Shown here piece by piece: positions 1,899-6,000 of a stretch of DNA of 7,530 bases. The DNA comes from DATKZS01 sp035527835 [NCBI: bacterium] (GTDB lineage Bacteria > RBG-13-61-14), in assembly GCA_035527835.1 (NCBI GenBank), contig DATKZS010000211.1, positions 1-7,530 of the forward strand. Direction: 5' to 3'. Numbering within the stretch: position 1 is the first letter of the stretch; every line of letters starts with the position of its first letter. A program made the position numbers and the translations under genes. The notes beneath the pieces were generated by a model. That model ran no database searches. It was not told the origin of the DNA and saw only the letters and a program-made list of their open reading frames with translations.

Positions 1899-1904
1899 GA
1901 GGTG
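1899..1904 (+). promoter_or_regulatory. Shine-Dalgarno supporting a non-canonical start at 1915
   Basis: GAGGTG at 1899-1904 is a good anti-SD match. It lies 10 nt before an in-frame ATT at 1915 and overlaps the in-frame TGA (1903-1905) that closes the frame upstream. The GTG at 1951 has only a weak GGAAG 12 nt away. Confidence 0.4.
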
Positions 1905-1950
1905 AAAGACGGCCATTGAGTTCAATGCGGACCTGGAAGCCGAGCTCAAG

Positions 1951-2970
1951 GTGCTCATACTGGAGGGCCGCAAGGTGGCGGCGATCAAGCGGGTGAGCGC
2001 GGAGATGGGCCTGGGCCTTAATGAGGCCAAGGAGGCGGTCGAGCGGTTCGCCGTGGAGCGCGGCATGACCCGGCACGGCGGCAAGCCCGGCCGTGTCACG
2101 TCAGCCTCGCCAGGGGGCGCCGGGTTCCTGACGCCCCGCATCCGGAACGAGATCGCGCTGCTGCTGAGCCAGCACAAGCCCATCGAGGCCATCAAGCATT
2201 ATCGCGAGGCCACCGGCGCGTCGCTCCAGGAGGCCGCGGTCGCCATCGAGGATATGTCGTCGCGGGAAGACCTGGAAGAGGCGCTTGAGTTCGCGGGGCC
2301 GGAGGCGTCCGTCACCGTTCCCGTCCGCGGCGTGATCAGCGCCGCGATCATGCAGGAGATCGTATCGCTATTAGAGCAGCACCAGAAGATCGAGGCGATC
2401 AAGCGGGTGCGCGAGGTCACGAGCCTGGGCCTCTCGGAAGCCAAGGACGCGGTGGAGAACATCGAGCGCGGACTGGGCCATGAGCAGCCGCCGCCCCTCA
2501 CGCCGGCGCCGCGGCGGCAAGCCCCTGCTCCCGCCGCGCCCGCGCCGCCCTCCACTCCCGACCCCAACGACTATGAGGAGCAGGTGGTCGTGCTGCTCTG
2601 CGCGGGAAAGCGCAAGGAGGCCGTGCGCTATTACATGTCGGCGACCGGCGAGCCCGAGCCGCGCGCCAAAAAGGCGGTGGAGCGCATCGGGCTCGTGAGC
2701 GGCGCCGCCAAAAAATCCGGCTGCTTCATCGCGACCGCCTGTTACGGCTCGGCCGATGCTCCCGAGGTGCTCGCGCTCCGTGGCTTCCGCGACCGCCGCC
2801 TGCTGGCTTCGGCCTGGGGCCGATCGCTGGTCCAGCTCTATTATCAGCTCTCTCCATTGTTGGCCGATTTCATTCGAGCCCGCCCCCGTCTCCGGCTGTT
2901 GATCAGGAAATCATTCCTGGTCCCCGTAAACAGGCTTATTTCAAGGGCCGGGAATGAGATGGAAGACTAG
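1951..2970 (+). CDS. L7/L12-like repeat protein with C-terminal CFI-box domain
   Basis: This is a 339-residue protein from the GTG at 1951. Four units resemble the helical core of the ribosomal protein L7/L12 C-terminal domain (pattern K-x-x-AIKxVRExTxLGLxEAKxAVE). They fall at about residues 1-37, 63-103, 131-173 and 208-248; units 1 and 3 are the closest to L7/L12. A Pro/Ala-rich linker (about 180-206) precedes unit 4. The C-terminus (about 256-330) is a CFI-box domain: [11 protein letters not shown] with C258, then [15 protein letters not shown] and [12 protein letters not shown]. No signal peptide is seen. GTG 1951 cuts into unit 1, whereas the frame is open back to 1906 and the ATT at 1915 (12 codons earlier) has GAGGTG in front and restores the full unit. 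The true start is therefore probably 1915. Function is unknown; the repeats suggest protein-protein contacts, perhaps with the translation machinery, which is inference. Its stop abuts a MITE-like repeat. Confidence 0.88.
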
Positions 2971-3075
2971 TGTCGTGTCCCGGGAATTCCTTGCATTGCC
3001 GTGCGGGCCTCTGGCCCGCATCTCCGCGGGGTTGCGGGCGAGGCGCCTGCACCACAATTCATGGGACACGACACT
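2969..3075. mobile_element. MITE-like 107-bp inverted-repeat element
   Basis: Terminal inverted repeats of 20 bp, 2969-2988 (AGTGTCGTGTCCCGGGAATT) and 3056-3075, match at 18 of 20 positions. The interior has no coding capacity and carries a perfect hairpin, TGCGGGCC (3002-3009), TCT, GGCCCGCA (3013-3020). Size, long terminal repeats and lack of genes fit a non-autonomous miniature element. No clear target-site duplication was seen. It lies between two convergent genes, and its first bases form part of the stop codon of the preceding gene. Confidence 0.65.
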
Positions 3076-3124: not shown

Positions 3125-4636
3125 TTAGCCCACTGAGCGCCTGCCGCCGAAATTCCTCCTCCAGATCCTCACCAGAATCCCCAGGGTGTAGCGGGGGCGT
3201 TTGAGGAGGAGGTCGAGGAAGAAGCGGCGGAGGAAGACGCGGGGACGGCGGAGGAAGGAGAGGAAGGTGTGGTGGAGGAAGGCGCGGTGGGCGAGCCGTT
3301 CAAGTTCACCGGGGGCGAAGTCACCGCGCTGGAAGGTGGCGTGGGAATAGGAGAGGTCCTCGAAGTTGAAGCCGGGCGGGAGGAGGCCGCGCTCGCGGAC
3401 GATCTCGTACATCTGGGCGCCGGGGAGCGGATTGGCGATGAAGAAATAGGCCATATCGGTTTTCATCCGGTGGGCGAAGGCTATGGTTTCCTTGACCTGC
3501 TCGCGGGTCTCTCCGGGAAAGCCCAGGATGTAAAAGGCGTCGGTGCGGAGCCCGGTCGAGTGGATGTGGCGGGTGATGCGCTCGGCCTTTTCCAGGTTCA
3601 GGGGCTTCTTAACGATTTTGGAGAGCACCTCCTGGCAGCCGCTCTCGAAGGCCAGGGTCATCTCGTAACAACCGGCCTCGATCATGATCTCAACCAGCTC
3701 CTCGTCCAGGGTCCACAGCGCGACCCCGTTGGGGAAGTTGAACTTGATCTTGTAGCCGCGTTCGCTGATGCCCCGGAAGATGGCCTTGGCCCGAGCCCGG
3801 TCGGCGGTGAGGTTGTCGTCCTCGAACTGGATTTCCTCGATGCCCCATTTCCCGATCAGCTCGCCGATCTCGTCGAGCACGTTTTCCGGCGAGCGGAAGC
3901 GGCAGCGGCTGCCCCAGAACCGGGTGGAGGAGCAGTAGATGCAGTGGGCCGGACATCCCCGCGAGGTGATCATGGGCGCGAAGGCCCGGCCGGAGATGGA
4001 AAGGCTATGGGGGACTCCCTCCTTGCGGTAAACCTCCATGGGCAGAAGGTCCCGGGCCGGGAAAGGGAGAGTGTCCAGGTCCTCGATCCAGCGGGTCCGG
4101 GGGTTTACCGCGACCCGGCCGTCTTCTTTATAGGCGATGCCGTCGAGGTCGTTCAGGGGCCGCCCGTCCCGGGAACGGCGCACGATCTCGCGGAGCGCCT
4201 GTTCGCCCTCCCCGATGCAGATGAGGTCAAGGGCCGGCTCTTGAAGGCACTCCTGGGCCAGGAAGGAGGGATGGGTTCCGCCCGCGGCGGTGACGATGGA
4301 GGAGTCAATTCTCCGGATTTCCCTCGCGACCTCCTTCACCACCGGCCACACCGAGCTGAACAGGCAGGTGATGCCCACCAGGTCGGGCTTGAACTCCGTG
4401 ACCCGCCTCCCGATCTCGGTAAGCGGCACGCCATACCAGGTAAAGCCCTTGTCCAGCTCATGCTGGTGGTTGCTTTCACCTGCCGCGTCCATGATCCTCA
4501 CCTCGGCCTCATCCCGGATCGCGGCGGCAAGATAAGCCGCGCCAAGCGGCGGCGACGCCACCTTCATGGTCTCGGCCGGGAGCCGCACCGGCGCGTGGAT
4601 GAGCAGGACGCGCTCGATCTTGCGGGGGAGGATCAT
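3125..4636 (-). CDS. B12-binding-domain radical SAM enzyme, substrate unknown
   Basis: The product is a 503-residue class B radical SAM protein. Residues 8-150 form a Rossmann-like cobalamin-binding domain (VLLIHAP, PPLGAAYLAAAI, LVGIT, AAGGTHPSF at 117-125). The DxHxxG loop of base-on B12 proteins is not evident, as in many BchE/HpnJ-type members. The radical SAM barrel follows, with C228, C232 and C235 in the [4Fe-4S]-binding CxxxCxxC motif. Further on are FEDDNLTAD (271-279), GFPGET (372-377) and NPLPGAQMY (402-410), typical of the family. The C-terminus is very basic and amphipathic (about 450-497), possibly membrane-associated. Family members do methylations, ring formations or C-C bond changes on lipids, porphyrins and natural products; which applies here cannot be told. 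The ATG at 4636 has AAAGGA 10 nt upstream, and its leader holds a predicted three-way junction. It converges on the CFI-box gene. Confidence 0.93.
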   Translation of the reverse strand: MILPRKIERVLLIHAPVRLPAETMKVASPPLGAAYLAAAIRDEAEVRIMDAAGESNHQHELDKGFTWYGVPLTEIGRRVTEFKPDLVGITCLFSSVWPVVKEVAREIRRIDSSIVTAAGGTHPSFLAQECLQEPALDLICIGEGEQALREIVRRSRDGRPLNDLDGIAYKEDGRVAVNPRTRWIEDLDTLPFPARDLLPMEVYRKEGVPHSLSISGRAFAPMITSRGCPAHCIYCSSTRFWGSRCRFRSPENVLDEIGELIGKWGIEEIQFEDDNLTADRARAKAIFRGISERGYKIKFNFPNGVALWTLDEELVEIMIEAGCYEMTLAFESGCQEVLSKIVKKPLNLEKAERITRHIHSTGLRTDAFYILGFPGETREQVKETIAFAHRMKTDMAYFFIANPLPGAQMYEIVRERGLLPPGFNFEDLSYSHATFQRGDFAPGELERLAHRAFLHHTFLSFLRRPRVFLRRFFLDLLLKRPRYTLGILVRIWRRNFGGRRSVG

Positions 4637-4842: not shown

Positions 4843-5424
4843 TTATTGCGCGCCGAGCCACTCGGCGTCCTCGGGCGCGCGGTCAATGGTCCATTCGCGG
4901 CATGAGGGGACGTGGAAGCGGAAGCGGCGGAGCTCGGAGGCCAAGAGGTCGGCCTCGTCGGCGTCCCAGTGGAGGCGGATGGTGTGTCCGGAATGGATGT
5001 CGGCGAGGTCGGCGCCGTGGGCGAGTCCGCGCAGGATGATCTCGGCGCTGTCGCGGGCGGGGGTGAGGGGTTTCTTGAAGTCGCGGGCGGCGAGTCCGAA
5101 CAGCGGGACCCTGGCGCGGAGCAGGGTCTCGATCATGCCGGCGATGATGCGCTCCTGTCCGGGGGCGGAGAGCGCGGAGCAGGCGCCGGCGCCGGAGATG
5201 ACGAGCATGGGGAACGAGTCGGGGGTCCCGGGCATGAAGAGGGTGGGGTCATGGGAGCTCGGGTCCACCACGGCGTCCTTGATCCAGGTGGAGATGAGTC
5301 CGGCGAGGCGGAAGTCCACGCGGCCGGCCTCGCGGCGCGGGGGGAAGACGTCGGCGAACACGGGCAGCGCGATCGGGTCCGCGAAGAACTGGTCAGCGGG
5401 GATGGCGGTCACCAGAATGTTCAT
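4843..5424 (-). CDS. Small protein resembling a stand-alone leucyl aminopeptidase (M17) N-terminal domain
   Basis: The product is 193 residues from the ATG at 5424. An alternative GTG at 5454 adds ten residues (MFRPPQRPWP) but lacks a clear ribosome-binding site, while the ATG has AAAGG 9 nt upstream (5434-5438). The first half, with VDFRLAGLISTWI (about 36-48), a Pro-Gly turn, the strand MLVISGAGA (about 73-81), then a long helix and VPLFGLA, resembles the macro-like N-terminal domain of M17 aminopeptidases. In those enzymes a strand giving RVLLVGLG follows a LxxLIxxGxF segment. No M17 catalytic metal-binding domain is present, so peptidase activity is not expected. The second half (HGADLADIHSGHTIRLHWD, then REWTIDRAPEDAEWLG) is unrecognised. 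The family match is tentative; that it is a real gene is supported by its coding frame and position after nusB on the same strand. Confidence 0.7.
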   Translation of the reverse strand: MNILVTAIPADQFFADPIALPVFADVFPPRREAGRVDFRLAGLISTWIKDAVVDPSSHDPTLFMPGTPDSFPMLVISGAGACSALSAPGQERIIAGMIETLLRARVPLFGLAARDFKKPLTPARDSAEIILRGLAHGADLADIHSGHTIRLHWDADEADLLASELRRFRFHVPSCREWTIDRAPEDAEWLGAQ

Positions 5425-5481
5425 CGGCCATGGCCTTTGCGGTGGGCGGAACACTCTTGTCCCGCGCGCCGGGAGATGAGG

Positions 5482-5512
5482 CGGCCCGACAGGAGTGTCG
5501 GGCCCGCCGATT
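5482..5512. repeat. REP-like palindromic unit, copy 1
   Basis: This is a 31-bp unit with a perfect 9-bp stem, GGCCCGACA (5483-5491), loop GGAG, TGTCGGGCC (5496-5504), followed by CGCCGATT. It is identical to copy 2 (5518-5548), with a 5-bp spacer between them. It lies in the gap between nusB and the next gene. Confidence 0.8.
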
Positions 5513-5517
5513 GATCC

Positions 5518-5548
5518 CGGCCCGACAGGAGTGTCGGGCCCGCCGATT
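5518..5548. repeat. REP-like palindromic unit, copy 2
   Basis: This is an identical direct copy of 5482-5512, with its stem at 5519-5527 and 5532-5540. Its last base is also the last base of the nusB stop codon (TGA, 5550-5548). The two hairpins could stabilise the upstream mRNA or reduce read-through, but there is no T-tract. Confidence 0.8.
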
Positions 5549-6000
5549 CAGCCGGTGCCTGGGCGCTCATGGTTCTGGTCCGGTCCGGGCGGCGTTATTT
5601 TCCCGAGCTTCCTGCAGATCTGGTCGAGGATGCCGTTGATGAAGGCGCCGGAGTCGGAGGTCCCGAATTTTTTTCCGACCTCGATGGCCTCGTCAATGCT
5701 GACCTTGGGCGGGGTGTCCGAGTCCATGAGCTCGAACACGGCCATGCGCAGGATGTTGCGGTCAATGCGGCTCATGCGGTAGAGCTTCCAATGGCGGGAC
5801 TGGGCCTCGATCAGGCCGTCAATCTCGGCCTTCTTTCCTTTAACGCCGTCCACGATGGCGCGGGCGAATTTCTTGACCTCCTCGGGATCGTGCTGGCTTT
5901 CCCAGAAGAGCAGGGCCGCTTCCTCGCTCTCGGGCCCGTGGAAGTCCCACTGGAAGAGGTATTGGAGGGCGAGCTCGCGCGCGCGGCGGCGTTTCCCCAT
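5548..6000 (-). CDS. nusB: Transcription antitermination protein NusB
   Basis: NusB is a small all-helical RNA-binding protein. With NusE (ribosomal protein S10) it binds boxA RNA and supports antitermination, mainly on rRNA operons. At 150 residues it has the usual family length. The conserved pieces are in order: RRRARELALQYLFQWD (4-19), the RMSRIDRNILRMAVFELM core (75-92), then VSIDEAIEVGKKFGTSDSGAFINGILDQI (100-128). The last 15 residues are a Pro/Gly-rich tail with no family signature. The ATG at 6000 lies 6 nt after the ribH stop, with no strong ribosome-binding site of its own, pointing to translational coupling. Placement directly after ribH is common in many bacteria. A pair of REP-like hairpins begins at its stop codon. 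Confidence 0.97.
   Translation of the reverse strand: MGKRRRARELALQYLFQWDFHGPESEEAALLFWESQHDPEEVKKFARAIVDGVKGKKAEIDGLIEAQSRHWKLYRMSRIDRNILRMAVFELMDSDTPPKVSIDEAIEVGKKFGTSDSGAFINGILDQICRKLGKITPPGPDQNHERPGTG

Follow-up and report, generated by a model that had tools for sequence, protein, structure and literature searches.

Four L12-like helical units joined to a CFI-box C-terminal domain: architecture, relatives and possible roles of a bacterial protein

What could be the role of a protein that repeats a motif of ribosomal protein L7/L12 four times and ends in a CFI-box domain, and how far is such a combination found elsewhere? The question is raised by an open reading frame at 1951-2970 (+) of the window, the whole stretch of 7,530 nucleotides analyzed here. 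An ORF check of the window found this frame just as the original prediction had described it. Its start, however, is probably an ATT codon at 1915.

The gene, its domains and its setting

The initiator Met of two relatives, L005 and L118, aligns with the ATT codon at 1915, and upstream the frame of the gene stays open to 1906. The gene therefore probably starts at ATT 1915 rather than at GTG 1951, which, given the aligned start, interrupts the first helix of unit 1. ATT starts are rare and a sequence error at 1915 is possible. G or C occupies the third position in 85% of the codons, to be compared with 86-93% in six other genes examined, so that the frame looks coding. The features are listed below, with helices numbered from the residue that follows the ATT codon.

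1899..1904, +, probable ribosome-binding site GAGGTG, 10 nt before the ATT (inferred from sequence)
1915..2970, +, probable whole gene, 351 codons from ATT plus the stop TAG (alignment with the start Met of L005 and L118)
1918..2058, +, unit 1, predicted helices 4-15, 19-30 and 34-47 (AlphaFold2 model, unit profile)
2128..2262, +, unit 2, predicted helices 73-84, 88-99 and 103-114 (AlphaFold2 model, unit profile)
2335..2475, +, unit 3, predicted helices 142-153, 157-168 and 172-185 (AlphaFold2 model, unit profile, site residues)
2476..2559, +, Pro/Ala-rich linker, mostly of low model confidence (sequence, AlphaFold2 model)
2560..2697, +, unit 4, degenerate motif, predicted helices 218-228, 232-243 and 247-260 (Pfam, model, unit profile)
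2722..2964, +, CFI-box-CTERM domain, four predicted helices, Cys codon at 2722-2724 (NF041770, models)

The Pfam profile Ribosomal_L12 (PF00542) matched the protein in three stretches with E 2e-18 and 66.9 bits, above its gathering cut-off of 25.9, the best stretch covering only profile positions 10-38 of 67. The predicted CFI-box C-terminal domain was recognized by the NCBIfam model CFI_box_CTERM (NF041770; E 3.9e-24, 84.3 bits, cut-off 40) at residues 269-333 of the 350 scanned. This match covers profile positions 1-65 of 69, lies within the last 82 residues, at the C-terminus, and has Cys 269 at its first position. The domain matches that place L12-like units and CFI-box-CTERM in one protein are beyond chance. 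Our unit profile identified four units, each with E at or below 6.5e-16; it includes the window units among its own rows, so that the independent evidence is the Pfam result. The four motif-bearing units that had been announced are thus all present, but they fit the motif unevenly, unit 3 best and unit 4 poorly. A match to DUF6793 (PF20593; 29.1 bits, cut-off 27) has its best stretch in unit 4, and five PHROG families of function unknown were matched through unit 3. The Pro/Ala linker had been thought to join the units to the CFI-box; it separates units 3 and 4 instead, and only a short stretch stands between unit 4 and the CFI-box.

The description of the protein as non-ribosomal agrees with its score against the bL12 model TIGR00855 (59 bits, below the cut-off of 84.4). 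The first unit starts at the very beginning of the protein. Neither an N-terminal dimerization domain, which binds uL10 in bL12, nor the ClpS family was matched to E 1 in the Pfam and NCBIfam scans, and no signal-like or membrane-helix stretch was detected by hydropathy.

The gene is flanked by an MgtE-type transporter gene (337-1716) and, on the opposite strand, by a radical SAM gene (3125-4636); no translation gene is adjacent to it. A defense system was rejected since PADLOC gave no match, and an RNA element since Rfam gave none at gathering scores. A 28-nt inverted repeat (1720-1813) lies between mgtE and the gene. Another, at 2969-3075, has 20-nt arms that are 90% complementary with 67 nt between them; it starts within the stop codon and could be a small mobile element or a terminator-like one. 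Elsewhere the window contains a 36-nt sequence present twice in tandem, both copies having a palindromic core (5482-5553), two direct copies of 25 nt, 44 nt apart and each partly palindromic (64-132: AAGTGGTCAG..CTGACACTT), and a minus-strand ORF of 203 aa (4846-5454) with no Pfam or NCBIfam match.

Predicted folds and the factor-site residues

In the AlphaFold2 model of the full protein, computed with 51 further rows, every unit is composed of three helices and no strands. Ten-residue means of pLDDT are 92-98 inside units 1-3, with 81-82 at the ends of units 2 and 3, and 70-95 in unit 4. The linkers have low confidence, pTM is 0.36 for the full length and the mutual arrangement of the units is not fixed by the model. 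The C-terminal domain of bL12, by comparison, is alpha/beta. When the unit profile was compared with PDB chains, the match to bL12 (best E 2.2e-7) spanned positions 17-41 of the 45 in the profile, leaving the first helix of the unit outside the match. Since the bL12 domain is alpha/beta and the units are strandless in the model, the hairpin is the sole part of L12 with a counterpart in them. There is good support, from the models, for units predicted to consist of the helix 4-helix 5 hairpin of bL12 plus a new first helix replacing a strand. The proposal that they are L7/L12 C-terminal domains is consequently not retained: the hairpin has the sequence and helix pattern of L12, but the alpha/beta domain is absent from the predicted fold. 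The protein thus shares with bL12 (PF00542, TIGR00855) a 25-position helix hairpin carrying the same motif, and differs from it by the absence of strands and of an N-terminal dimerization domain, by the extra first helix and by its four copies. A PDB fold search with the full model gave no match at E 0.001 or below among 214 (best E 0.25). ClpS-like adaptors, to which the units had also been likened, have an alpha/beta fold akin to that of the L12 C-terminal domain; the comparison rests on that fold and loses its basis, as the model has no strands and there is no ClpS match.

The factor site of bL12 is taken here to comprise K65, V66, I69, K70, R73, L80 and K84 (E. coli numbering). Positions 18, 23, 26, 33 and 37 of the unit profile correspond to K65, K70, R73, L80 and K84, respectively. 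Units that have the first helix were taken as non-ribosomal; there are 70 of them, repeat copies of loci included, and 61 are unique. Among the unique units the K70 position is K or R in 95%, the K84 position K in 90%, the R73 position R or K in 89%, the L80 position L in 97% and the K65 position K or R in 85%, all figures inflated by the collection of units through their similarity to the motif. By alignment, the basic positions of the site are mostly kept in the sampled units. All seven are kept in one window unit only, unit 3: Ser stands at the R73 position of unit 1, Pro and Ala at the K65 and K84 positions of unit 2, and unit 4 has lost most of these residues and keeps few. According to passages of PMC6753160, bL12 receives IF2, EF-Tu, EF-G and RF3 on a positively charged surface that its helices 4 and 5 form; these two helices are the part of bL12 kept in the units.

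Modeled alone, the CFI domain has four helices (pTM 0.71). Its profile matched no PDB chain to E 1, a PDB fold search with the model gave just two matches, both with E 9.7, and VIA-align of the model on those two chains gave no Z of 2 or above. None of 79 CFI members matched Pfam to E 0.01. The Hedgehog autoprocessing motif served as the basis of comparison for the GCF sequence; autoprocessing of that kind was rejected, the domain being predicted all-helical and no His occupying any column that is invariant or almost so (in loci gathered with peptide patterns built on the motif, such invariance is partly forced). As had been stated earlier, the CFI-box has no firmly known role: no paper in the literature collection searched names CFI-box, CFI-box-CTERM, CFI motif or CFIATA.

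Relatives and the place of the CFI-box

A first scan of genome contigs with the whole protein found no relatives. A scan driven by the CFI motif gave at least 80 loci, the best among the matches listed coming from Pedobacter (L005), whose protein has two units and a CFI-box. Genome draws, the ranks and names of which we infer, extended this set. The combination occurs in two of the 151 genomes of the family draw of L005 (L005 and L118), and in a phylum draw of 296 genomes a match across both parts was found only in the Pedobacter itself. The family draw of Niabella (214 genomes) provided three intact cases, L275, L276 and L277, where an N-terminal CxxC pair region resembling by eye a Zn ribbon precedes two units and the CFI-box. 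Among the matches listed, none spans both parts in draws of Planctomycetota (246 genomes) and Abyssobacteria (3 genomes). Intact genes with two units and a CFI-box, besides that of the window, are therefore L005, L118, L275, L276 and L277, from two Bacteroidota family draws only. L010 combines a CFI-box with a single weak unit and a weak match to a Zn ribbon. Over all loci collected, a unit is present in 6 of 150 unique CFI ORFs; ten further loci, scanned among the matches listed, contain none. To judge from these sequences, the architecture is genuine and recurrent, and rare in what was searched. L075 (5773-6545), from Niabella hibiscisoli and a fourth case in the Niabella draw, has its CFI-box in a different frame from its two units and Zn-ribbon-like start, which corresponds to a frame break or a sequence error.

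The CFI Cys is kept in 11/11 NF041770 matches, which came from 11 genomes in a phylum draw of 249. The number of units is four here, two in the five intact relatives and one in L010. Window units 1 and 3 score nearer the first units of the Bacteroidota proteins and unit 4 nearer their second units. Unit 2 does not score nearer the second units, and the tree of units gives no clear answer either, so that an A-B-A-B duplication of the Bacteroidota A-B pair is no more than a candidate origin of the window array.

A word-based literature search (subscription journals lay outside its scope) brought up no account of repeated three-helix units combined with a CFI-box, or of exchange of the CFI-box for a membrane helix. 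Within that scope the combination of units with a CFI-box looks undescribed. L12 fusions as such are in print: phage proteins carry bL12 domains within larger polypeptides (passages of PMC6375957), so that the occurrence of L12 domains elsewhere than in the ribosomal gene is already known. As in the window, an L12-like domain lies outside a ribosomal gene, and according to the paper its site residues are kept; these are, however, phage genes, and the same passages mention no CFI-box for them.

Close relatives carry a membrane helix in place of the CFI-box. In the family draw of L005, the two units and following linker of L119 and L120 align with those of L005, and both proteins end in a membrane helix, as do L125 (two units), L154 and L285 (one unit each). 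In a tree of 44 short units (no support values), the L005 units group with those of L119/L120 while the second unit of L118 is placed elsewhere. A simple hydropathy rule (Kyte-Doolittle, 19-residue windows) was applied to 43 non-ribosomal unit ORFs, which are 45 rows minus two bL12 and represent best matches rather than a random sample. It predicts a membrane helix in 29 (15 C-terminal, 9 N-terminal, 5 internal), while 4 have a CFI-box and 10 have neither. These counts class L010 as CFI although the rule also flags a stretch there, and are affected by L155, whose two ORFs are perhaps one broken gene, by L252, cut by the contig end, by L249, whose frame extends too far upstream, and by L075 with its CFI-box in another frame. 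Gly-Cys directly precedes the C-terminal helix in 9 of the 15 (L251, L254, L257, L218, L259, L219, the second ORF of L155, L260 and L221) and is absent from the other 6, including L119 and L120. Gly precedes the CFI Cys in 103 of the 150 unique CFI ORFs; L275 and L276 have Ala-Cys. On a plain reading, unit proteins would often be tied to the membrane and the CFI-box would fill that place here. In the phylum draw of G007, L212-L215 and L222 combine paired Cys like those of a Zn ribbon, an L12-like unit and a membrane helix with a repeat region that is beta-propeller-like by eye.

The wider CFI sample (97 ORFs, 95 different domains) was split at 92 residues counted from the Cys on. In the 54 long-tailed ORFs a membrane helix, commonly followed by basic residues, comes after the domain in 49, and a signal- or membrane-like stretch before it in 40. 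Of the 43 short-tailed ORFs, 16 have a hydrophobic stretch before the domain and none a following helix, an absence partly forced by length since only 18 of these tails can fit a 19-residue window. The window protein is of the short-tailed kind and has no hydrophobic stretch before its domain. It matches CFI-box-CTERM over 65/69 positions, with the usual C-terminal place and Gly-Cys start, but differs from the usual members by its N-terminal partner, an L12-like array, and by a short tail with no helix after it. The net charge of the last CFI helix has a median of 4 without a following helix (n=41) and 2 with one (n=54), a small difference whose p of 0.004 is too low owing to related sequences.

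By sequence, long-tailed CFI proteins resemble exported sorting-tag proteins. L173-L178 and L264-L270 look exported and mostly show a Gly-rich linker, the CFI domain, a membrane helix and a basic tail, an undescribed sorting-tag-like arrangement. Other partners include leucine-rich repeats above cut-off in L022, and Zn-ribbon and TPR matches below cut-off in L013 and L020. L001, L002 and L004, from Burkholderia (annotated cold-shock domain) and Comamonadaceae plasmids, join Zn-ribbon-like paired Cys to a CFI-box. The controls Bacillus subtilis and Lactococcus lactis gave NF041770 matches below cut-off. A rhomboid partner was rejected: such a gene follows L005 only, a scan of the loci with a crude pattern found that locus and its copies L116, L117 and L143, and, being confined to one locus, the neighbor is taken as chance.

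Possible roles of the protein

A scaffold or adaptor, already suggested by the original prediction, is the natural reading of repeated L12-like hairpins fused to a CFI-box. Our preferred version, held tentatively at a probability of roughly 0.42, is a cytosolic, membrane-associated multivalent adaptor. Four three-helix units on flexible linkers and, after them, an all-helical CFI-box domain are predicted with good support. The latter would replace the C-terminal membrane helix of the relatives and keep the units on the cytoplasmic side of the inner membrane. A partner would be bound by the basic face of the hairpin, where bL12 contacts translational GTPases; such GTPases are the obvious candidates. 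Unit 3 would bind, units 1 and 2 less so, and unit 4 resembles a spacer or a unit with another specialization. Several points count against this adaptor: the CFI-box of the window contains no membrane-helix window, the 10/43 unit ORFs without either anchor lack any such tie, and the window units other than 3 lose site residues. Anchoring by the CFI-box alone is also doubtful because the separate helix that follows it in 49/54 long-tailed ORFs would then be needless.

Close behind ranks a soluble scaffold, possible but somewhat less favored, in which the CFI-box would be a docking or oligomerization domain and the units a generic three-helix binding module unrelated to translation. The CFI-box does end many unrelated proteins, some without a membrane stretch (L022, L013, L020 and the plasmid proteins), and its four-helix model and the anchorless unit ORFs fit a soluble role as well. 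Its spread is comparable with that of SHOCT, which is likewise small, widespread, C-terminal, joined to many partners and of open function in PMC3581485; the two are likened by description, and for the CFI-box there is a separate NCBIfam model and no match in Pfam. A soluble scaffold would, however, leave the membrane-helix exchange in close relatives and the helix frequency of 29/43 in need of another reason.

It is rather unlikely that the units act as a stalk decoy or membrane-side recruiter, binding EF-Tu, EF-G, IF2 or RF3 and altering translation near the membrane or under stress. The basic site residues kept in the sampled units would suit this role, as would the retention of helices 4 and 5, where the GTPase site of bL12 lies (passages of PMC6753160). 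Phage bL12 domains, too, keep the EF-G/EF-Tu residues, and peptides of one were found in ribosome fractions; yet ribosomes could not be purified through the tagged phage protein (passages of PMC6375957). Moreover, the units have none of the strands on which the hairpin of bL12 is carried, window units 1, 2 and 4 each lack at least one site residue, and neither mgtE nor the radical SAM gene serves translation.

A processing domain, whose Cys would be modified or at which the chain would be cut as proposed for MYXO-CTERM, is improbable: the Cys is invariant in the 11 NF041770 matches, and many exported CFI proteins recall, by their Gly-rich stretch, conserved Cys, helix and basic tail, the tripartite MYXO-CTERM/GlyGly-CTERM tags (passages of PMC11980579), but even the exported forms have a conserved domain of ~65 residues separating the Cys from the helix, the crude pattern revealed no partner protease among rhomboid-like neighbors, and the sorting route of such tags should not apply to the window protein, which has neither signal-like stretch nor membrane helix.

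The broadest form of the membrane-associated adaptor is a long shot. It would be a non-ribosomal stalk in which arrays of bL12-like hairpins gather translational GTPases at the inner membrane, with a membrane helix as their anchor in many bacteria and the CFI-box serving instead in this lineage and in some Bacteroidota; the CFI-box would then be a widespread membrane-contact domain with a new all-helical fold. The CFI-box has been named by NCBI, yet no Pfam family, solved structure or, in the literature collection searched, paper was found for it, and close relatives that differ in a CFI or membrane-helix end make its role directly testable. With L12 hairpins apparently rebuilt as three-helix units and often membrane-tied, the recruiting surface of the stalk may live on outside the ribosome.
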